Assembly (NCBI RefSeq): GCF_000348745.1
Contig: NC_020812.1
Coordinates: 1,869,444 to 1,933,443, forward strand
Length of the DNA: 64,000 bases
From: Micavibrio aeruginosavorus EPB
Lineage (GTDB): Bacteria > Pseudomonadota > Alphaproteobacteria > Micavibrionales > Micavibrionaceae
Direction of reading: 5' to 3'
The notes below the pieces were generated by a model. That model saw only the letters and a program-made list of their open reading frames with translations, did not search any database and had not been told where the DNA came from. Each line of letters opens with the position of its first letter. Positions within the stretch are counted from its first letter, which is position 1. Positions 2,582 to 13,755 of this stretch are shown here, piece after piece. A program made the translations under genes and the position numbers.

Positions 2582-3313
2582 TCAGTTCGGGCAACCCGCT
2601 TCTTGGAACACCGCAGGAGAACCCTTGATCGTCATCCAGACGCGGAAGCAGGTTGAATTGGCTGGGCACTCAACACCGCCATCGGTATCCAGATCCACCG
2701 CACTGCCACCCGCGACAACCGTATCCGCCTCGCACTTGCCAAACTTTTCTTCCAGCTTAGCCAGCGCCGTTTGCAGATAGGAATCGCTCTTCGTCGTATG
2801 GGTCCAGAAGAAAATTCCGTCATCACCGTTATAATATTCCCATTTTTCAAACAAGGGCGGCGGCGGCGGCAGGAATTTTCCTGTCTCGGCCGTGAAGATG
2901 CGCTTGTGGTTATTATCATCACCGGGATTACCGGGGCAGCGCAGATATTCAACAAAATCATCTGTATCTGCGGGCGGTGTCGCACCGGTGAAATGTGTTG
3001 ATGTTGGCTTGATCGGGAATTTTTTATTTGCGCCCGGGTCACTGCCCGTCGGGCTGTTATCAATCGTGTTATCCCCTTTTTCATGCAGGATCACACATTC
3101 CTGAATCGCGGTGCGGATATATTCCGCCTGCGATTCAATTTCCGAGATGGTTTTGAACGTATTCTGGCTCTGCGTCTGTTGTCCCGACGGCTCCATAAAG
3201 CTGAGCGTCAGCGCCGCCAGCAACGCAATGGCAATAAGGATGTAGACCAACGCACTGCCCCGCTCGTTCACGCGCGTATCCCGTCTCTGTACCATCATCA
3301 AACCGACACCCAT
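2582..3313 (-). CDS. Pseudopilin-like membrane protein (second of pair)
   Basis: Last gene of the minus-strand pilus locus. A short basic leader (RVNERG) is followed by a hydrophobic helix (SALVYILIAIALLAALTL) and a long polar domain with four cysteines, as in prepilin-like proteins. The glutamate usual at position 5 after the processing glycine is absent. It parallels the gene at 3453-4202 (ERG, hydrophobic helix, about 245 residues), so the two are probably paralogues. The ATG at 3313 is preferred because AAAGGTG lies just upstream; a GTG three codons earlier is also open. A role as minor pilin or adhesive tip subunit is inferred from context. Confidence 0.7.
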   Translation of the reverse strand: MGVGLMMVQRRDTRVNERGSALVYILIAIALLAALTLSFMEPSGQQTQSQNTFKTISEIESQAEYIRTAIQECVILHEKGDNTIDNSPTGSDPGANKKFPIKPTSTHFTGATPPADTDDFVEYLRCPGNPGDDNNHKRIFTAETGKFLPPPPPLFEKWEYYNGDDGIFFWTHTTKSDSYLQTALAKLEEKFGKCEADTVVAGGSAVDLDTDGGVECPANSTCFRVWMTIKGSPAVFQEAGCPN

Positions 3314-3452
3314 TCCAATCACCTTTAAAAAATACCGTTGTTACTATTATACAAAAGAAAAGCTGGCCATCCAACCCTGGACGACCAGCCTTTCAAACTC
3401 AAGCGAAACAGGTCAATGCAAGGGGACGAAAACCCGCCCCCCAGCACGCATC

Positions 3453-4202
3453 TTACCGTTCAACCAGAACGTGGTAGTAGACGTATACGTTGCCACCCGC
3501 ATCGTAGCAACCAAAAGGCTGACCTTTCAATGTATCACTGGCACCATCGCCAATAACTTCACCGGGCGTAGCTGCCAAAGCAGGGTAGCTATCGTTCATA
3601 AAGTCAGATGTTGCCCCTTCTTGTGCACCAGACGGAACATAAGCAGCTTCGCCGGTTGGAATGCTTGAACCGATCCCCAACTCTTCATTCATTTTCCGGC
3701 ACACTGTTTGTGTAACACCCGGCAAATAGGCAATAAGATCGTTACCAGAGTTGCTTGCGGCATCAGTCAAACCGATATCCTGAATTTGGTTCTTCATGTT
3801 AAAATACCAGTTTCCTGCGGTATTTCCTCCACTTGACGCCATCATATCAGCAGGAGCATTCGTGAAAACTGCGCCTCCCCCTTGCGGATGGAATACAGCC
3901 GAACGCTCTTCATCTTCTGTTGTAATTTCATCGAAATCCGACGGCGGGTTGAACTTCAATTCATTCACGTCCGTCCCGGCAATAACCATCCGTACAATCG
4001 CCGTCCGCACACCGGCCGGGTACTGCGTCAACTGTGCCGAGCTGATCAAGGCAGTTTCACCGGATGCGTCACCAGACCCAGACCGGGTGGATTGCGTCAC
4101 GGCGTAGGACAAAGCGGCAAACAACGCCACCGCGATCAGGATCAGGAACAACACGTTCCCGCGCTCCCCCGAACGTTTATTTTCAATCATTGTTGTGGTC
4201 AT
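3453..4202 (-). CDS. Pseudopilin-like membrane protein (first of pair)
   Basis: A protein of 249 residues with leader MTTTMIENKRSGERG, then hydrophobic NVLFLILIAVALFAALSY and a polar, Gly/Asn/Ser-rich exported domain. The Gly followed by a hydrophobic helix fits cleavage by the A24 peptidase encoded at 13249-13755, but residue +5 is not Glu. GAGGAG sits seven bases before the ATG at 4202. It follows the 176-residue bitopic gene in the same direction and precedes the similar gene at 2582-3313. It is probably a pilin-like subunit of the apparatus, though it could be a substrate. No specific family was recognised for the C-terminal domain. Confidence 0.72.
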   Translation of the reverse strand: MTTTMIENKRSGERGNVLFLILIAVALFAALSYAVTQSTRSGSGDASGETALISSAQLTQYPAGVRTAIVRMVIAGTDVNELKFNPPSDFDEITTEDEERSAVFHPQGGGAVFTNAPADMMASSGGNTAGNWYFNMKNQIQDIGLTDAASNSGNDLIAYLPGVTQTVCRKMNEELGIGSSIPTGEAAYVPSGAQEGATSDFMNDSYPALAATPGEVIGDGASDTLKGQPFGCYDAGGNVYVYYHVLVER

Positions 4203-4274: not shown

Positions 4275-4295
4275 TAATATTGCATTCCAATATTA
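4275..4295. repeat. Perfect AT-rich hairpin at gene end
   Basis: TAATATTG (4275-4282) and CAATATTA (4288-4295) form a perfect 8-base stem with a CATTC loop. It overlaps the stop codon of the 176-residue gene and lies before the pseudopilin-like gene. Without a T-run it is more likely an mRNA processing or stability hairpin than a terminator. Confidence 0.35.
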
Positions 4296-4823
4296 CTTCG
4301 GCTTATCGACAGAAACCTTATTCACCTTCAACAGGGCAATCAATTTATCCTTGTCGCATTCGCGGCCGACGCACATGCGATCCACCGTCACGCGCCACCC
4401 CGTACCACCATTTTGCATATGGCCGATAGCTTCACGAAATTCGGCAAAGCGCGACGTATCCGTCGACGACACCTGAATGCTGGAGCCCGAGGCTTGAATT
4501 TTCAATCCCCGGTAAATTTGCGCCAGATTTTCAGCAAAGCTTTTTACATCGGCCGCAGGGACGGGAACGTCCGTGACCTTTGGCACCATGGGCTTCAGCG
4601 CCTCAACCTGTTTCAGTTCGGCGCGCAGCGTAATCATTTTCTGGGTCTGGATGGTGGCATACAGGCCAAGTGCCCCGGCGGCGGCCCACGCGATGCCCGC
4701 GGCAATCAATGCATTTTGGCCCGCCGTCTGTGGCAGGTTTTCCAAAAAGCGGTTTAAATCTTCACTGGCCTGCGGCTTCATATATTTTTGAAGCGACCGC
4801 CAGTCGAACGACTTGAAGTCCAA
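4293..4823 (-). CDS. Bitopic inner-membrane protein of the pilus locus (PilO/GspM-like position)
   Basis: A protein of 176 residues: a cytoplasmic N-terminus, one membrane helix (about 38-60, NALIAAGIAWAAAGALGLYA), a short heptad stretch (about 61-77), then a small periplasmic alpha/beta domain with two cysteines (CVGREC). This organisation matches PilO/GspM-type alignment proteins, which bridge the inner-membrane platform and the secretin, but sequence identity is too weak to name the family. It is separated from the upstream gene by 191 bases of AT-rich DNA with its own candidate promoter, so it may head a sub-operon with the two pseudopilin-like genes. Confidence 0.65.
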   Translation of the reverse strand: MDFKSFDWRSLQKYMKPQASEDLNRFLENLPQTAGQNALIAAGIAWAAAGALGLYATIQTQKMITLRAELKQVEALKPMVPKVTDVPVPAADVKSFAENLAQIYRGLKIQASGSSIQVSSTDTSRFAEFREAIGHMQNGGTGWRVTVDRMCVGRECDKDKLIALLKVNKVSVDKPK

Positions 4824-5014: not shown

Positions 5015-6010
5015 TTACGACGTTCCCACCAAACGCACCCGGCCATCGCCCTCGATCCCCGGTTTGATGGTTCCACGAATCGGCCCCACACCCTGGCTGA
5101 ACGATTTCGGCACCAGCGCTTCCCATTCAACCTTGCCACCCTTCACTTCGTAGCGGACCAGTGTCCCCTCGATCGTGCGCAACGTATCCAACAATTCCTG
5201 AATCCGCACCATGTGACGAATGGTATCCGACTGCAATGCGCCATAGGCATTGATCATCAGATCGTTCGATAATTTTTCGCTGTCCGCCTTCACCTTGGCC
5301 AGGTCGCGTTTGACAAAGCCCGTCATCAGGAACTGCAGAACAATTACGCCAACGGCCAGAAACGAAACCGCCAATCCGGAATAGAGCAGCACCATGGCCG
5401 TTGCGCGCGATAGTTTTTCAGTACGCAGGGCACGATTGCGCCACGGAATAATTGTGGCCACATCCGGGTTGATGGTCACGAAATTGGCATCCATGCTCTG
5501 GATACGCGGCAACAATGTCCGGGCCGCGCCAATGTAAACCTGCATCCGCGCCGTTTCCGGATCCCATCGCAGAGCGCTGGCCATACCTTCTTGTTCATAC
5601 AGGTAAACGGTTTCACGATCCCAATATTCGCTATTGCCCGGCAATGCCGCGGCCAGCGGACACCACGTATCCGGCGCACTGGCCAAGGCCACAGACGGCA
5701 CAGCCAGATACCAGCAACGCCCATCATCCACCGTGTAACAATAATGCACACGCTCCGTGCCGCACGCCTGTGACGCGGCGTTCCACACCGCCTCCTCTTC
5801 CGTTCCGGGAATGTGCGGCAACGATCCGCCAAAAATTTCGGACGGCAGAAACGGCGACAGATCAGTGCGAAAATCTTTCGCTTCGCCGGCGATAATATCA
5901 GCCATACCGGGACGCATGCGCGCCGGCCCTTGATCCGCGCCAACGGAGGCACCCGGCGTTGCACCCGCCCGGGTCATTTTTTTCAATGTGTCTTTCGTCG
6001 GGAAAGCCAT
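5015..6010 (-). CDS. Bitopic pilus-assembly protein (PilO-type/GspL-like position)
   Basis: A protein of 331 residues. The first 200 residues are probably cytoplasmic and contain several cysteines (CGTERVHYCYTVDDGRCW). One membrane helix (about 204-230) is followed by a helical stretch (about 233-285) and a short beta-rich end. This resembles GspL/PilN or R64 PilO-type proteins, which connect the ATPase and platform to the periplasmic scaffold. It starts four bases after the GspF/PilC-like gene stops, so the two are surely co-transcribed. No diagnostic motif was found, so the assignment rests on topology and position. Confidence 0.65.
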   Translation of the reverse strand: MAFPTKDTLKKMTRAGATPGASVGADQGPARMRPGMADIIAGEAKDFRTDLSPFLPSEIFGGSLPHIPGTEEEAVWNAASQACGTERVHYCYTVDDGRCWYLAVPSVALASAPDTWCPLAAALPGNSEYWDRETVYLYEQEGMASALRWDPETARMQVYIGAARTLLPRIQSMDANFVTINPDVATIIPWRNRALRTEKLSRATAMVLLYSGLAVSFLAVGVIVLQFLMTGFVKRDLAKVKADSEKLSNDLMINAYGALQSDTIRHMVRIQELLDTLRTIEGTLVRYEVKGGKVEWEALVPKSFSQGVGPIRGTIKPGIEGDGRVRLVGTS

Positions 6011-6014
6011 AATC

Positions 6015-7235
6015 TTACATTGCTCCGCTCATCAGGCCGCCCATCATGCTGTCCATGCTCATGTTCATCACGGTCAGGGCGTAAATGGCGCTACCAAAGG
6101 CGATGGTGAGGTAAACACCGGTGAGACCAAACGCGATCCAGACGATCAGGCTATGCTTCGTCTTCGCCGCGGCCGCACGCATTTCTGCGATTGACTCCAA
6201 TACTGTAGCAACTTGTCCCAGATCGGACAAGCTGGCCAGTTCCATACGTTCACTCCTGCTGAGGGGGGCCCGGTCCAACGCAGACCCCAGCCCGACCCCA
6301 CGTTCCAGCTCCGTATTCGCCTCGGTCCAATACCGGGCCACTTCCGGCACCGTTGTAGCCTCGGACGATTGTTTCAGCGTATCGGAAATCGGCACCAGCC
6401 CGCGCAACATACGCGCCGCCGCCATCATCGAGTCCACAAAGCCCAGATCCCGCAGATATGCGCCAATCAGGGGGATTTTTCGCACCACACGCGCCGTCGG
6501 CCAGTCGGTTTTCCCTTTGTTGATCCAGAAGGAAATAACCGCCCAGGCCATAAAGGCCCCGGCCGCAAACGCCGTAAATATCAAAATATCCCAGGTCAGC
6601 GCCAATTGCCCAACCACGCGCGTGAATTTTTCCTGCTCCGCCGGGTCGGTCGGTGCGTTGTTTTTAAACCAATCCAGAACCATCCCCCGGCCCCAAAACA
6701 GGGATTGCACAATCGACACAACGTCAATCGCCAGCCACGACATCGTGGCCACGATGGCGCGGGTGTTGCGGCGTTTCTGTGTAATCGAGTGAATGGCGTG
6801 CGGAATACCATCCTGCAACTTGTTTGCGCGTTCGCTGGCCGCCAGAATGGCGATGGTGCCGTGGTCGAAAATACGCAAGGCTTTCAGCGCATCAATCACA
6901 CCCAAACCGCGTGCCAGCGCTTCCCGCGCGGGGGCCAGAATGTTCTGGCGCATCGGGTTGGTTTCGGCCTGAATAATCCGCCAGAATGCCACACCCGGCG
7001 ATGTCGCCGTGGAGCGGAATTGAATCCCGCGCAACAACTGCACCTGCCACCATGTGGATCGCGCCAGCATCCGCTCCATCGGGGAGCGTTCATGCGGACG
7101 AATGGACAGGACATATCCGCCCTTCTTCGACACAGCACGGCGCACATCATCCGCCGTCGGCAGATAAAAGGATTCCACAGCGGTTTTTGGTCCGCTGGAG
7201 GAATCATACGCAATTTCGGCGACCCATTGCTGCAT
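6015..7235 (-). CDS. Type II secretion/type IV pilus platform protein (GspF/PilC family)
   Basis: Polytopic inner-membrane platform protein of 406 residues. It shows the two-fold GspF arrangement: helical cytoplasmic domains with hydrophobic segments near 165-190 and 222-250, and a last one near 370-395. Motifs typical of the family include IPLIGAYLRDLGFVDSMM and an Ala-rich helix bundle (MRAAAAKTKHSL). It would engage the assembly ATPase encoded just upstream and drive pilin extraction. A 77-base gap with a small GC hairpin separates it from the ATPase gene. It is more divergent than PilC, closer in size to R64 PilR-like proteins. Confidence 0.85.
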   Translation of the reverse strand: MQQWVAEIAYDSSSGPKTAVESFYLPTADDVRRAVSKKGGYVLSIRPHERSPMERMLARSTWWQVQLLRGIQFRSTATSPGVAFWRIIQAETNPMRQNILAPAREALARGLGVIDALKALRIFDHGTIAILAASERANKLQDGIPHAIHSITQKRRNTRAIVATMSWLAIDVVSIVQSLFWGRGMVLDWFKNNAPTDPAEQEKFTRVVGQLALTWDILIFTAFAAGAFMAWAVISFWINKGKTDWPTARVVRKIPLIGAYLRDLGFVDSMMAAARMLRGLVPISDTLKQSSEATTVPEVARYWTEANTELERGVGLGSALDRAPLSRSERMELASLSDLGQVATVLESIAEMRAAAAKTKHSLIVWIAFGLTGVYLTIAFGSAIYALTVMNMSMDSMMGGLMSGAM

Positions 7236-7312: not shown

Positions 7313-9154
7313 TTAATTTTCCAGATTCGAGAGCGCAAGTTTCGGGTCCACCAACCCGCTTAAGACCAGATCCACCAGCCCCTCGCGTCGCGTGTGAACA
7401 ATCACGCCCCCGACATGCAGCACCGCGTTCACGTTAGACATCAGCGCTTCGTAAATCTGGTTCCGCTGCGCCGGGCCCATCGGAATCATCACCGCGTCCA
7501 GCAGCAATGTCCGGCCCATAATCCCCGTGCGGTTGCAAAGATCACAGCCCGAGCTGTTGTGCGTCCGCACGATGGCATCGGGACTGATACCCAGCATATA
7601 AATCTCTTCTTCGCTCATCGCCTCGACTGCGCGCGTTTTGTGGGCGCATCCCTGACACAGCGTTTTCACCAAACGCTGGTTCATGATGGCCTTCACCTGT
7701 TGCGCCAGGGTGAAGGTTGATGAACGCTCTCGCTCATGCGGCATCAATGAACGCAAACGTTCAAATGTCTGCAATGCCGTATCGGCGTGAATGGTTGAAA
7801 TCACCGTGTGACCGGATTCAGCGGCGCGCAAAGCGGTTTCGACCGTATCGCCATCCCGCATCTCCCCGATCACGATATAGTCTGGATCGTGACGCATCGC
7901 GGCGCGGATCAAATCGGCAAATTCGCCACCCGGCATGCCCGGGCGCACCTGCCACTGCGTGGCGTAACGCAATTCATATTCAATCGGATCTTCAATCGTC
8001 AGAACGTGACGACGGCGACGGTCAATCTGCTGTACGCACGCGTAAAGCGTTGTCGTTTTACCCGAACCCGTCGGACCGGACAGCAAGATCAAACCACCGC
8101 CACCCTTAATATCCGGCGACAGCAACTGCGAAAGATAATCCGCCACATCTGTATGGCGGCGGAACAATTCGTCAAACCCCTTCAGCGACGCGCGGTCGAG
8201 CAGACGCAGAGTGATTTTTTCACCGTCCTGCGCCTGTGGTCCAGCGGCCACACGAATATCAATGTTCCGGCCCTGCCACATAAAGGCAAAACGTCCATCC
8301 TTCGGCGTGGTCCGGTCACCGAAGTTCAAACCCGCATCACGTTTGATCAACGTTGTCAGACGCGCCATGGCATCGGACGGCAGCAAGTGCATGGGAATCA
8401 TATCACCATCGATACGGTAGCGAATCCAGTTCGGCGTATCGGGGTTGTTATCCTGCAAAATGTGAATATCCGATGCGCGCATCTGCAACGCTTCGGCCAG
8501 CATGTCGCGCTGGAACTGGTTCAACAGCAAACCGTTATCCGTATCGGACAACCATTGCGCCAATGTTTTTTCCGTCCGGTCGGCCGACAGATCATGGACG
8601 GCGCGCAGTGTTTCCAACAGCTCCGCCCGATCCCAGACCTCGATCTCAATACGATCGACAACCAGACCTGAACGGTTGGCGGTGGACAGCAACGCTTTGA
8701 TCTGGCGATCATTTAATTCATGCAGGGGCGCAATCCGCATCACCCCGTCCTGCAGGCCGATCAAATGGATCGACAGCGGCAACCAGGATTGCACGGGCAA
8801 AATTGACCGCAACTGGTCACCCGACGCGCGGTCACGCAAGCCTTCTTCTTCGGCTTCCGCACCACCGGCCACCGTGGCTCCGGCCATTTCCAGCAATTGT
8901 TCCGTGGTGCGTGACACGCCCTGATCCATCAGGATCGCACGTTCCTTCTGCACCATATCCAGATAACGCTCGCGCCCTTCGTTCGCGCGCATACGGCGAC
9001 GATCCGCCCACATGCGGCGTTCCATTCCACCGGGCGCGCCCTGCTCCGCCTGACGGCGATCAACACGCTCACCCGGCCCTCGACGCTCTTCGCCTTCATA
9101 AGAGGGGACGGCGTCAATCGGGTTCTGATCGTCTGGATAATCCTGATCGCTCAT
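7313..9154 (-). CDS. Pilus assembly/secretion ATPase (GspE/PilB family)
   Basis: Hexameric motor ATPase of 613 residues. A charged, Arg/Asp/Glu-rich N-terminus (1-70) precedes an N1-like domain and the core ATPase. Walker A is GPTGSGKT (360-367), the Walker B region is DYIVIGEMRD (425-434), and a His box (STIHADTA) is present. Four cysteines (500, 503, 537, 540) form the CxxC...CxxC zinc site seen in GspE/PilB-type assembly ATPases rather than PilT retraction ATPases. No retraction ATPase is encoded in the window. The gene lies 12 bases after the upstream gene in a tight operon. Confidence 0.93.
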   Translation of the reverse strand: MSDQDYPDDQNPIDAVPSYEGEERRGPGERVDRRQAEQGAPGGMERRMWADRRRMRANEGRERYLDMVQKERAILMDQGVSRTTEQLLEMAGATVAGGAEAEEEGLRDRASGDQLRSILPVQSWLPLSIHLIGLQDGVMRIAPLHELNDRQIKALLSTANRSGLVVDRIEIEVWDRAELLETLRAVHDLSADRTEKTLAQWLSDTDNGLLLNQFQRDMLAEALQMRASDIHILQDNNPDTPNWIRYRIDGDMIPMHLLPSDAMARLTTLIKRDAGLNFGDRTTPKDGRFAFMWQGRNIDIRVAAGPQAQDGEKITLRLLDRASLKGFDELFRRHTDVADYLSQLLSPDIKGGGGLILLSGPTGSGKTTTLYACVQQIDRRRRHVLTIEDPIEYELRYATQWQVRPGMPGGEFADLIRAAMRHDPDYIVIGEMRDGDTVETALRAAESGHTVISTIHADTALQTFERLRSLMPHERERSSTFTLAQQVKAIMNQRLVKTLCQGCAHKTRAVEAMSEEEIYMLGISPDAIVRTHNSSGCDLCNRTGIMGRTLLLDAVMIPMGPAQRNQIYEALMSNVNAVLHVGGVIVHTRREGLVDLVLSGLVDPKLALSNLEN

Positions 9155-9166
9155 CGCTTCAGGCCC

Positions 9167-10804
9167 TTACTGCGTTGGTGTCGCGGTTGAGGATGAGGAC
9201 GACGAAGATGAGGACGATGATGATGTGGTCGAAGACGATGAACGGCCCGGACCCACATTCACGGAATTGGACGACAGAGCACGATCGAACAGCAACAAGA
9301 CTTTTTCATCGCCGCTTTGGAATTCAACACCGCTGGAGCGGATATTGACGTTCCACAGGAAACCGCCGATCACGACCTCTTCCCCATTAAACACAATACG
9401 GCTGCCACCCGGACCGGTGATAATGGCCCGCTTCGGCGAGTGCGATGTCACAGCAAAGCCGTCCAGAACCGTTGCCGGATCAATATCATTGTCGCGAACG
9501 ATAATTTCCTGACGCGATTCACCGGACGCGCTGGTCACAACCGTTTCGGCCAGACGAACAGCCTGATTATCCTTGCTGACGATGCCGGTTGCAGTCCCGC
9601 GTACAGGCAGGACCAGAATGCCGCGGGCCCCATCATGCATCACCTGAATATCATCCAGAATGGCCCCTTCACGGACCGGGTTCCAAACGACGGTCAGCGG
9701 ACAGGCCTGAACAGGTTCCAGCATCATATCCGGGGCACATCCGTTTTTCGAAATCGACAACCCCGTGTCCGTGTTGGACAAACGAATGTCGTTCAGGGTC
9801 AAAGCCACATCACCCGCATTCACCAATGATACGGTCATAGCGGACGATGTCGAAACGCCGGTTTCAAAATTGATCTCTTCCTGGGAAGATACCAGCAACC
9901 CCTTGCCCGGAATGGCTTCCGGGAACGGCTTGGCCTGCTCCAGATCCTCGGGATCAAACTCACCCAGAATGGGTACGCTGGCCACACTGGTCGGGCCGGA
10001 ATGTTCAATCACCAGAACGCCCGACACCTGACCACGCAGGATCGGTGACCAGATCACCGACACAATACAGGCCTGACCGGGGCCCAGTTTTGCGCAATCC
10101 GTGCGGAAGCTGATCCCGGATTTATCGGCGGCCTCAACATAGATCGCCTCGATATCAATCGCTTCGGACGTAATATTACGGAACACAACCGGTTTGACGA
10201 CGGGCTGGCTGGTATCCACATCCTCGAAATCCAGCTCGGTAGGAATGGCTTCGATATCGCTGCGGAATACATCGGTATCATCATCATTGGCCTGCACATC
10301 ACCCACGACGGTCGCGGTGACCAGACGCGTGGTGCCACTGTGGCGCATCAGCATTTCGATACGGAAACGTCCCGCCTGCAACCCCTTCACGGACAGACCA
10401 ATGGCGCAGACCGCCCCCGGCGGCAACATATCTTCGGGCGAGGAGCCCTGGCATTCATTGATCGCAACCGACGCCGACACGCTGGATGACGGATAGAGAT
10501 TGATCGCCCCCGTTTGCAACGGACGACCGCTGTCGTTGCGGAACAACACCACGACCTGCGCCGTGGATCCCAACGAAATTTGGCCGGTATCCACGTTCGG
10601 CTGCACTGGGGTCAGATCACCGATCACGCCGCCCTTGCCCGTCACGTTCCGGCCCGGATCGTCAAACGCGCTTTGCGCGACCGCTTGCGATGAAAAACCG
10701 GTCCACAACAACCCAGCGCCAACAGCGCCGATCAGGCATGCACGCAAACCCCGTGAAATCAGGGTGTGTGCGGACGATGGGGCCATGTTCAATAATGTCA
10801 TCAT
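9167..10804 (-). CDS. Exported protein with three ASH-like beta modules and a PilP-like C-terminal domain
   Basis: A protein of 545 residues with a signal peptide (cleavage likely after AVAQ, about residue 45). Three tandem modules of about 95-100 residues follow (about 72-170, 188-284, 303-404). Each has a beta-sandwich pattern like choice-of-anchor/ASH domains and one cysteine pair (118/133, 237/246, 356/368) in a C...L.PG..C context, suggesting a disulfide per module. Residues 445-508 (SRIVFNGEEVVIGG, then GDEKVLLLF) look like the PilP/GspC HR fold that docks on secretins. A Ser-rich tail ends the protein. It sits between secretin and ATPase, where PilP-type genes usually occur. A scaffold role is inferred. 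Confidence 0.7.
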   Translation of the reverse strand: MMTLLNMAPSSAHTLISRGLRACLIGAVGAGLLWTGFSSQAVAQSAFDDPGRNVTGKGGVIGDLTPVQPNVDTGQISLGSTAQVVVLFRNDSGRPLQTGAINLYPSSSVSASVAINECQGSSPEDMLPPGAVCAIGLSVKGLQAGRFRIEMLMRHSGTTRLVTATVVGDVQANDDDTDVFRSDIEAIPTELDFEDVDTSQPVVKPVVFRNITSEAIDIEAIYVEAADKSGISFRTDCAKLGPGQACIVSVIWSPILRGQVSGVLVIEHSGPTSVASVPILGEFDPEDLEQAKPFPEAIPGKGLLVSSQEEINFETGVSTSSAMTVSLVNAGDVALTLNDIRLSNTDTGLSISKNGCAPDMMLEPVQACPLTVVWNPVREGAILDDIQVMHDGARGILVLPVRGTATGIVSKDNQAVRLAETVVTSASGESRQEIIVRDNDIDPATVLDGFAVTSHSPKRAIITGPGGSRIVFNGEEVVIGGFLWNVNIRSSGVEFQSGDEKVLLLFDRALSSNSVNVGPGRSSSSTTSSSSSSSSSSSSTATPTQ

Positions 10805-10819
10805 CGGATCATTTACCTA

Positions 10820-12607
10820 TCAATATGTTCCGGTCAGCCGGCCGGATTCGAGAAGATCCACCGGAGCCCCGTTATTGGACGTCCCCGTCATACGCGCATC
10901 GCGCGCCAGCGTCGCTGGGCGTTGCGTATCCAACGGCGCAACCTCAACCGACGAATCCATCGCCGCGCTGGCCGCAGGCACAACAGGTGCGATCGGCGCA
11001 ACATTGGACTCCGTCACGGGCGACACAAATGCCTCGCCACCCGTTGATGTCGCCACGGGCGCAGGCGCCACAAACGGCGTTTGGCCCGGCGACGGCACAT
11101 CCGGATTCACCGGCGCATCAGACGGTGCCGGCATGGCCGACCCACGAATGGCATTGCGCTGGCCTTCTTCCGGGTTGGTGTAGACAACCACGCGGGGGCG
11201 GAGCAGGAAAACCAGTTCCTGGTTCGTCGTCACGGTCGAACGGTTGGTCGGCACGATCGGCTCCATCAACCCCAGGCCATTGGTATTAAAGTTGTCCGAT
11301 TCCTGCACCAGTCCAGCGATCAGGACTGAATCACCCGGACGGACGCGCACCTGCGTGTTCAATTCACGTTCGGTCGTGCGGGGCAACTGAATCGTTGTCG
11401 ATCCACCACCCGTGGAATCAAAGGCAAAATCCTCAATCTCCAGAACATCGGTCAGGGCGATTTCAATATCGGCATAAACCGTCGCGTTATCCCACGCACT
11501 GCCGACCGTCAGAGTAAAGCCCGTATCCACCGAATCCGTGCTGACCGACGTGGTCGACTGGCCGTTATCCAATGTCTCGGAAATTTCTGCGACATAGTTC
11601 TGGCGTTCCGCCGCGCGCAGGCGCGCCTCAGACCCGGACAGAACGGTGATTTGCGGCTGGGATACGGTTTTCACCGCGCCAAATTGTGACAGGAAGTTGA
11701 AAATCTCACGCGCGCTCAAAGAACCGTCCGCGCCCTCAATCCCCTTCGTCGTCGGCAAACCGATACTGATCGGGTTGGTAAATCCTTCGCCCAGCGTCGC
11801 ATCATTGATGCTAAAGCCCGTGCCAAACTTGCCCAGATCGGCCAGCATATCCCAACGAATACCCGTAGCGTTACCGGCGTTCAGCGACACTTCCCAGATA
11901 TAGGTTTCAAACACGATCAACGCGGTCGATGCACGCATGCGCTGGAAATAGCGCAACGCCATATCGGCGGATGTCTGGTTCGCCGTGTAAACCAATGTCC
12001 GGGTCGAGCTGTCGATAATCGGAGATGTACCGACAATCGCGGCCAAACCGGCGGCGACGTTCTGCATAAACGATTCATCCTGACTGATCGGCGGAATTTT
12101 GACGGTGAAGGTCTGGTTTTCTTTCACAACCAGAACACCATCTTCGAACGAGCAATAAAGCTGGGCCAGACCGCAGACCTTGTGCACGACCGAATTCAAC
12201 GGTCCGCGCAAATTGGCGACCGTGATCGTGCGGGTCAGGCCTTCGTTGCTTTCAAACGCCAGCGGCACATCGTAATCCGCCAAAATCAACTGCAACGCAC
12301 CAGCCAGCGTTTCACCACGCAGCTCCAGCGGACCGACCATATCGCTCGGCAGTGGATCATCCATGGAAATTTCCGGGATCAGCACATCGCGCCCCAGCGG
12401 CAGATACATCACGCTATCCGGACGTTCGTTGATGGCTTCCTTGCGCTCCTCGGCAAAGGCGGGCGCGGGAATATCCAGATCGCGAGCACCCGGCACGTTG
12501 GCCTGCGCGCAACCCAGCAACATCAGCGGCAACACCGCAGCGGACAGCAATTGTCGCGCCATACCTTTACGGTTCTGCATTTTGCATGCGTGTGTTTTCA
12601 TCATCAT
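10820..12607 (-). CDS. Lipoprotein secretin of a type IVb-like pilus (PilN/BfpB type)
   Basis: Outer-membrane secretin of 595 residues. A lipobox ends in Cys33 (LMLLGC). N0/N1-like periplasmic domains follow (to about 240), then the secretin core with VKTVSQPQITVLSG and the C-terminal signature NQELVFLLRPRVV. A Pro/Ala/Val-rich tail of about 120 residues comes after the core. The lipobox and the QPQITVL motif favour PilN/BfpB/TcpC-type secretins over GspD. The gene begins ATG ATG ATG at 12607, overlapping the TGA of the response regulator gene by four bases (ATGA). The cysteine pair in the N-domain (CGLAQLYC) may form a disulfide. Confidence 0.9.
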   Translation of the reverse strand: MMMKTHACKMQNRKGMARQLLSAAVLPLMLLGCAQANVPGARDLDIPAPAFAEERKEAINERPDSVMYLPLGRDVLIPEISMDDPLPSDMVGPLELRGETLAGALQLILADYDVPLAFESNEGLTRTITVANLRGPLNSVVHKVCGLAQLYCSFEDGVLVVKENQTFTVKIPPISQDESFMQNVAAGLAAIVGTSPIIDSSTRTLVYTANQTSADMALRYFQRMRASTALIVFETYIWEVSLNAGNATGIRWDMLADLGKFGTGFSINDATLGEGFTNPISIGLPTTKGIEGADGSLSAREIFNFLSQFGAVKTVSQPQITVLSGSEARLRAAERQNYVAEISETLDNGQSTTSVSTDSVDTGFTLTVGSAWDNATVYADIEIALTDVLEIEDFAFDSTGGGSTTIQLPRTTERELNTQVRVRPGDSVLIAGLVQESDNFNTNGLGLMEPIVPTNRSTVTTNQELVFLLRPRVVVYTNPEEGQRNAIRGSAMPAPSDAPVNPDVPSPGQTPFVAPAPVATSTGGEAFVSPVTESNVAPIAPVVPAASAAMDSSVEVAPLDTQRPATLARDARMTGTSNNGAPVDLLESGRLTGTY

Positions 12608-12975
12608 GTCCCCCGGGCGACCAACACCCGTTCAATCGCTTTAATCAACCTGTCTTTCACAACCGGCTTGATCAGAACAGCACCGACACCCCACTTGGCC
12701 GCCTGTTCCAACAAATCGGTCGTTTGATCGCCCGTCACCAAAATGACCGGCGTTTCCAAATCTCTGCCGCGCACCGCGCGAATAAAATCCAATCCACCCA
12801 TCGGTTCCATCCGCACATCGACAACGGCGGCCGCAATATCTGCGCTCATCAAACCGAGTGCTTCGTGACCGTCTTTTGCCTCAACCGTTTCATGACCGGC
12901 ATCTTTCAAAAAACGGACAATTTGCATCCGTACAAAATCATTGTCTTCGACAACTAAAATCTGGGCGGCGGACAT
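12604..12975 (-). CDS. Single-domain response regulator coupled to the secretin gene
   Basis: A CheY-like receiver of 123 residues with no output domain. It has the acidic patch (VEDND), the phospho-Asp in VVDVRMEPMGG, the Thr in LVTGD and the Lys in LIKPV. The ATG at 12975 (MSAAQILVVED) is chosen because the fold starts there; the frame stays open far upstream without domain content. Its TGA overlaps the secretin ATG, so translation of the two is probably coupled. This suggests that phosphorylation controls the apparatus. The nearby hybrid kinase at 100-2433 is a possible partner, without direct evidence. Confidence 0.88.
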   Translation of the reverse strand: MSAAQILVVEDNDFVRMQIVRFLKDAGHETVEAKDGHEALGLMSADIAAAVVDVRMEPMGGLDFIRAVRGRDLETPVILVTGDQTTDLLEQAAKWGVGAVLIKPVVKDRLIKAIERVLVARGT

Positions 12976-13248
12976 GGGACGAGCCGGGAACAAAAGAAGG
13001 ACTGGGAGGTGGTCTGACGTGATTCGCCAAACCGGATAAATCATAACAAGGGTAAACAAGGAACCCCTTTGATGCAAACGCTTTTGGCGCAAATCCGTGG
13101 GTTCCGGCCCCCACCCCCGAAATATTAACGATTGCTTCAGCTTCGAAAAATCGCTGTGAATCACCACACCCTCGCATATTGAGCCCCACCCCGCCCGGGT
13201 GTAGGGTCGCCCCATCGCTTTTCCCGATAACCCGATGGAAAGACTGGT

Positions 13249-13755
13249 ATGTTGGACTGGGTGGCGCTGTTATGCCTTGCGGGCGCGATTGGATTGCTGA
13301 TCGCGCTGGCCATCATTGATCTGAAAACCTGGCTGCTGCCCAATGTTCTGGTTGCGCCCCTTGCCCTGCTCGCCGTCATTTTCCATTTTGTTGCCCCCGC
13401 CCAATCCCTGACTTTACCCGACATGATCTTCGGGGCCGTGCTCGGCTTTGGCGTATTATGGATTATTCGCTATTTCGGCAGCCGGTATTATGGTCAGGAC
13501 GCACTCGGCCTTGGCGATGTCAAACTGATGGGGGCCGCCGGATTATGGCTGGGGGCTGAGGGCATCACACTGGCCCTGACCCTCGGCGCGACCGCCGGAT
13601 TGTTGCACGGGCTGGGCGTTGCCGCCCTGACCGCCCGGCGCGAAGGCGGGACGATGAAACTCTCCCGCCTGCAAATTCCCGCCGGGCCCGGTTTCGTTGT
13701 CGGCATCCTGTGCGTTGGCGCGTACCAATACATGCATTTCCGGATCGGGGGGTAA
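13249..13755 (+). CDS. Short type IV prepilin peptidase (A24 family)
   Basis: Polytopic aspartyl protease of 168 residues. The catalytic aspartates are in ALAIIDLKTWLLPN and GLGDVKLMG. It lacks the N-terminal methyltransferase domain of full-length PilD, as in CpaA/TadV or R64 PilU-type enzymes. It is transcribed away from the pilus operon across a 273-base gap and probably processes the two pseudopilin-like proteins. The next gene starts six bases after its stop, so it may be co-transcribed with the CoA-transferase, which is functionally unrelated. Confidence 0.9.
   Translation: MLDWVALLCLAGAIGLLIALAIIDLKTWLLPNVLVAPLALLAVIFHFVAPAQSLTLPDMIFGAVLGFGVLWIIRYFGSRYYGQDALGLGDVKLMGAAGLWLGAEGITLALTLGATAGLLHGLGVAALTARREGGTMKLSRLQIPAGPGFVVGILCVGAYQYMHFRIGG

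Follow-up and report, generated by a model that had tools for sequence, protein, structure and literature searches.

An exported protein of ASH modules and a likely HR-like domain as candidate secretin adaptor in a type IVb/MSHA-like pilus machine of a Micavibrio-type bacterium

The gene at 9167–10804 on the reverse strand of the window, the 64,000-nucleotide stretch of DNA analyzed here, encodes a protein that we propose, with a probability of roughly 60%, to be the adaptor in the alignment complex of a type IVb/MSHA-like pilus machine, a job held elsewhere by PilP or GspC. The comparisons below directly establish an exported protein with a signal peptide, a defined module anatomy and invariant cysteines, which occupies a slot beside a secretin gene, obligately co-occurs with that secretin and in some relatives has its second module, M2, expanded. 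How a type IV pilus couples its secretin to the motor in the inner membrane is a central question, and here the coupling would be made by a soluble protein whose stiff modules vary in number, in a lineage that includes a predator of Gram-negative bacteria. The genome, a single contig of 2,458,610 bases, is of Micavibrio type (Alphaproteobacteria), with its nearest relative genome at 98% protein identity.

Domain organization of the ASH protein

The gene and the parts of its product are as follows.

9167–10804, reverse strand: protein of ASH modules and a likely HR-like domain, 545 aa, ATG start; homologues in 41/58 relatives
10676–10804, reverse strand: signal peptide, residues 1–43; cleavage AVA/Q; helix 14–36 in the model
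10652–10675, reverse strand: conserved mature N-terminus QSAFDDPG; motif [QR]xx[AG]FxxP
10277–10624, reverse strand: ASH module M1, residues 61–176; Cys118/Cys133
9941–10270, reverse strand: ASH module M2, residues 179–288; Cys237/Cys246; the unit multiplied in genus g40
9575–9910, reverse strand: ASH module M3, residues 299–410; Cys356/Cys368
9482–9574, reverse strand: variable low-confidence linker, residues 411–441; pLDDT 43–69 around 411–440
9263–9481, reverse strand: C-terminal domain, probably HR/PilP-like, residues 442–514; seven strands, conserved
9170–9262, reverse strand: Ser-rich disordered tail, residues 515–545; pLDDT below 46

The original prediction of three tandem repeats of one fold is borne out, and that fold is ASH. 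Profile-profile comparisons relate M1 to M2 (P = 1e-9), M1 to M3 (P = 1e-4) and M2 to M3 (P = 3e-15), the Pfam ASH profile (PF15780) recognizes the protein with E = 1.3e-15 and 57.8 bits against a curated cut-off of 27, which places it in the family, and the NCBIfam choice_anch_D profile (NF012200) matches three stretches of it (E = 1.6e-13). AlphaFold models three beta domains, each with pLDDT above 90, whose best PDB matches in Foldseek are ASH domains of Hydin, CFAP and CEP192 proteins; phmmer and profile searches that ran the full protein against the PDB returned only eukaryotic ASH matches and noise. The module fold is thus common to ASH/choice-of-anchor D proteins, Hydin, CFAP65 and CEP192, from which the window protein differs by one cysteine pair per module and by its setting in a bacterial periplasmic machine.

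The predicted single pair per module likewise stands: Cys 118/133, 237/246 and 356/368 occupy matching positions, just ahead of and at the beginning of consecutive strands, and are invariant in 38/38 homologues and throughout a 76-sequence alignment. Exactly six cysteines are present in the mature part of 71/76 homologues, the seventh cysteine of the window protein being inside the signal peptide. The pairs are also retained (97–100%) in both modules of a two-module fusion that occupies the same operon slot in 29/33 genomes of another alphaproteobacterial order and in genome G157, and ten M2 repeats extracted from a long g40 array contain one pair each. Their pairing, their position and the export of the protein suggest that they form disulfides.

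The signal peptide is of type I, and its AxA/Q cleavage site is kept in 76 homologues. A lipobox-like string occurs in only 2/76 homologues, that is, not consistently, and the model contains no transmembrane helix besides the signal peptide and no other membrane anchor. The motif at the mature N-terminus is nearly invariant (F/L47 in 76/76 and P50 in 75/76 homologues) and also follows the signal peptide of most two-module relatives. The 411–441 linker differs in length among aligned homologues.

The C-terminal domain is likely HR-like

Residues 445–508 had been predicted to adopt the secretin-docking HR/PilP fold. Because Ig folds dominate a Foldseek search with the whole model, the C-terminal domain (residues 442–514) was modelled alone, where it forms a separate and confident unit of seven strands (AlphaFold pLDDT 91.2, pTM 0.81), and homologue alignment identifies G467, W484, F506 and D507 as its invariant residues. 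A degenerate fourth ASH module was considered for this region and rejected (hhalign against M1–M3, P above 0.1).

The first and fifth Foldseek matches of the isolated domain are two chains of 7MUC, which, being 63 and 59 residues long, correspond to DotF 207–269 and 208–266. The top match, DotF 207–269, has a probability of 0.95 and TM scores of 0.53–0.59 with a weak E of 0.24; no match reached E<0.001, and GspC and PilP structures were absent among the 50 matches listed. We know of no ASH modules in DotF. The best structural match is a repeated docking domain of an envelope machine, Dot/Icm, and a DALI search by the structure's authors is reported to have found GspC (3OSS) and PilP as similar to it (PMC8486379); the machine itself differs, being one of type IVB secretion.

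Direct profile comparison by hhalign gave a weak match of the Micavibrio domain to T2SSC (P = 0.004) and no match to PilP (probability 0.8%), and intermediates were therefore sought. The C-terminal domain of the two-module relatives matches T2SSC/GspC-HR at 95% (P = 3e-8) and PilP at 80%, shows weak family matches of its own (Pfam T2SSC, E = 0.017; GspC_delta, E = 0.036) and reads like GspC-HR, for instance DIHLIGTVGDRAVIVKPDGSTAVARVGDTV; the Micavibrio domain is in turn collinear with the two-module profile (P = 9e-4). A phmmer search of the PDB with the C-terminus of a two-module relative found nothing, and no protein in the genome matches PF04351 (PilP) or PF11356 (GspC).

Taken together, the model and the profile comparisons make it likely, to a good degree of confidence, that the C-terminal domain is HR-like. 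Of the predicted HR/PilP fold, the distinct domain, the DotF match and the GspC-HR match of the relatives speak in favor, whereas the direct PilP and T2SSC profile tests and the missing membrane anchor speak against; strict PilP membership, lacking both such an anchor and PF04351, is not supported. Since the closest structure is reported to resemble GspC-HR and PilP and the relatives match GspC-HR, an ASH plus HR-like secretin adaptor is a well-supported working model.

A type IVb/MSHA-like pilus operon

The ASH gene lies between those of a secretin and an assembly ATPase, in an operon with the following features.

10820–12607, reverse strand: secretin, MshL/PilN/BfpB-like (PF00263, E = 9e-18); invariant Cys33 in lipobox-like LLGC
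12113–12355, reverse strand: putative N0 domain of the secretin, ~residues 85–165, by position and conservation; presumed docking site
7313–9154, reverse strand: GspE/PilB-type assembly ATPase (PF00437, E = 1.5e-79)
6015–7235, reverse strand: PilC/GspF-like platform protein (PF00482, E = 3.8e-7)
5015–6010, reverse strand: 331 aa single-TM protein, possibly PilN/GspL-like by layout; conserved operon order
4293–4823, reverse strand: 176 aa single-TM protein, possibly PilO/GspM-like by layout; conserved operon order
3453–4202, reverse strand: pilin-like protein, 249 aa, N-terminus ERG/NVLFLILIAV; conserved in the operon
2582–3322, reverse strand: pilin-like protein, 246 aa, N-terminus ERG/SALVYILIAI; conserved in the operon

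The nearest families of the secretin are MshL and PilN (NCBIfam) and its best solved relative is BfpB (E = 4e-24); as its scores fall short of the equivalog cut-offs that NCBIfam sets for MshL and PilN, it is a relative of these and neither of them. From these affinities and the invariant lipobox-like Cys33, the machine is, by its gene content of a lipoprotein secretin, PilB-like ATPase, PilC-like platform and pilins, a type IVb/MSHA-like pilus. The 331 and 176 aa proteins have no Pfam match. The secretin residues ~85–165 are a putative N0 domain, assigned by their position; an STN match appears in one of 38 secretin members, at E = 0.24. Besides the lipobox Cys33, the N-terminal domain of the secretin contains two invariant cysteines, 145 and 152.

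The gene order secretin, ASH protein, ATPase, platform, 331 aa, 176 aa and two pilin-like proteins is identical in every locus uncut by a contig end (53 full matches, the others being cut by a contig end and one having an extra upstream match). Among 58 related genomes the ASH protein is found in 41 and the secretin in 39: none has the secretin without the ASH protein, all 17 without the ASH protein are also without the secretin, and in the two that have only the ASH protein its gene sits either on a short contig or where a contig ends. The gene had been placed in the slot of PilP, which is right insofar as it adjoins the secretin, but it lies downstream of it and not at the position of pilP in pilMNOPQ.

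An exported soluble protein whose gene adjoins that of the secretin and which obligately co-occurs with it could also be a factor for secretin assembly: a chaperone or pilotin-like helper that binds the secretin in the periplasm while it is being assembled and is absent from the completed machine. Beta-sandwich modules do occur in chaperones. We consider this highly unlikely, as the invariant lipobox C33 of the secretin itself makes a pilotin unneeded for targeting, and stiff tandem modules of variable number with a docking-type domain better fit a structural part.

The genome encodes two more secretins. A second type IV pilus locus, L151 (1,494,001–1,512,000 of the genome, G000), contains a 653 aa secretin near 1.50 Mb, PilT/PilU/PilB-like ATPases and a 235 aa exported protein of MshK-like look beside a PilO-like protein, neither of the latter two being named by any Pfam family. 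As this secretin comes with a small protein of its own, the ASH protein is dedicated to the window machine.

By our reading, a response-regulator gene (12604–13215) lies upstream of the secretin, adjoined by a divergent prepilin-peptidase-like gene (13249–13755). In the two pilin-like proteins (3453–4202 and 2582–3322), the N-terminal residues that follow ERG are hydrophobic and position 5 is not occupied by Glu, and a weak GspK match was obtained; a missing Glu5 is unusual for major pilins and is seen in GspK-type minor pilins.

Proposed mechanism and relation to known adaptors

In the adaptor model, the ASH protein would be exported and its signal peptide removed, after which the C-terminal HR-like domain may dock on the lipoprotein secretin at its periplasmic N0 domain, with the disulfide-locked ASH stack serving as a stiff periplasmic spacer or a collar around the channel. 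The conservation of the mature N-terminus, [QR]xxAFxxP, suggests that it could bind the platform at the inner membrane (the single-TM proteins of 331 and 176 aa), and such binding would replace the membrane anchor of PilP and GspC.

PilP (PF04351), of type IVa pili, is alike in its expected role of joining the inner-membrane complex to the secretin N0, in a gene beside that of the secretin and in a small C-terminal beta domain. Unlike PilP, the window protein has no PF04351 match and no lipid anchor, includes three added ASH modules, is encoded downstream of the secretin and belongs to a IVb/MshL-like system. The HR domain of GspC (PF11356), from type II secretion, is the one whose profile the two-module relatives match at 95%, whereas the Micavibrio copy matches it weakly; the window protein has no transmembrane anchor, PDZ domain or coiled coil, carries its HR-like domain C-terminally after the ASH modules and ends in a Ser-rich tail. 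The expected place beside an MshL/BfpB-like secretin is shared by MshK and the type IVb accessory proteins TcpQ and BfpG, which differ from the window protein in being small and are not known to carry ASH modules.

In the open-access literature, where absence is no proof, we found no report linking ASH/choice-of-anchor D domains to type IV pili. The parts are known; their combination and the graded repeat number are, to us, new.

Module number varies across relatives

Separate module profiles assign the two modules of the shorter relatives to M1 (first module, 28/28) and M3 (second module, 28/28), which gives a family architecture of M1-(M2)n-M3-C-domain, where n is 0 in 28/28 relatives of the other order and 1 in 76/76 Micavibrio-type proteins. 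Querying the phylum with a two-module relative, a single sequence and hence a weak probe, returned no further group.

In genus g40, of the same order as Micavibrio, M2 is multiplied. Genome G350 has an unbroken frame of 1434 codons comprising M1 and eleven M2 copies; beyond it, past one TAA and two short N gaps, lie additional M2 copies, M3 and the C-terminal domain, for a total of at least 15 M2 and at least 17 modules on draft contigs with gaps. In G044, also a draft, about seven M2 copies and thus ~nine modules are found around a 10-base N gap. Three other g40 genomes have contigs that break off within the array or immediately ahead of it, the expected outcome where short reads fail to bridge repeats. 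The M2 copies share 48–83% protein identity, so that the array is not a recent duplicate introduced by assembly. A pseudogene was rejected as the cause of the broken frames, since both long arrays contain N gaps and assembly is the likelier cause. An in-frame TAA in the G350 array (L176:7685–7687) lies away from the N gaps and may be either a sequencing error or a real break.

The presumed partners show no matching growth: the periplasmic part of the 331 aa protein measures 93–94 residues in g40 against a median of 98, and that of the 176 aa protein 105–116 against one of 115. In the g40 secretins (L176:1437–3398, L178 and L031), ~56 Gly/Ser-rich residues are inserted behind the N0 region, in the very genomes that carry long ASH arrays. 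At ~4 nm per module, our own estimate, 17 modules would extend over roughly 60–70 nm, a length several-fold that of an ordinary periplasm, and a stack of more than 60 nm cannot stand between the membranes at normal spacing, so that it must bend, wrap or run sideways. The earlier suggestion that the protein reaches through the periplasm therefore fits three modules and not the versions with at least 17, and the difficulty of placing such a stack between two membranes weighs on the adaptor model.

The g40 arrays favor the main rival reading, in which the C-terminal domain holds the secretin while the ASH stack points sideways, grips peptidoglycan or other envelope proteins and acts as an anchor against pilus retraction, module number setting the reach along the wall and not the membrane spacing. 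The ASH protein indeed has no membrane anchor, and its g40 stack grows to at least 17 modules while the 331 and 176 aa proteins keep periplasmic parts of unchanged length, which leaves no simple inner-to-outer-membrane ruler in g40. We still regard this reading as unlikely, as Pfam found no peptidoglycan-binding motif in the protein and the conservation of the N-terminal motif points to a protein partner.

Returning to the adaptor model, it is possible, if doubtful, that the g40 adaptor runs sideways along the envelope or wraps it, as a lateral brace whose length is set by module multiplication; to our knowledge, no such brace has been described in any pilus or secretion machine. Proteins with two, three, about nine and at least 17 modules form a length series provided by nature, on which the question of spacing can be tested.

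Repeat expansion is also reminiscent of adhesins, and ASH/choice-of-anchor modules are common in surface proteins, so that the protein might instead leave through the secretin and decorate the pilus or the cell surface, its repeats extending an adhesive tip. Micavibrio does attach to prey (PMC3189940). Of the readings considered here, we nonetheless find this one the least likely: the conserved C-terminal domain is related to secretin-docking domains, the ASH protein has no pilin-type leader, and the modules of the n = 1 group are well conserved and not fast-evolving (mean column identity 41–48%).

Finally, the family profile also matched open reading frames in other alphaproteobacteria (L148–L150) that were rejected as family members, being fusions of ASH-type domains to TrbI/VirB10 (PF03743; L148:3610–5313, forward strand; L149:4272–6140 and L150:6266–10105, reverse strand). 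ASH modules may thus have entered type IV secretion as spacers as well.
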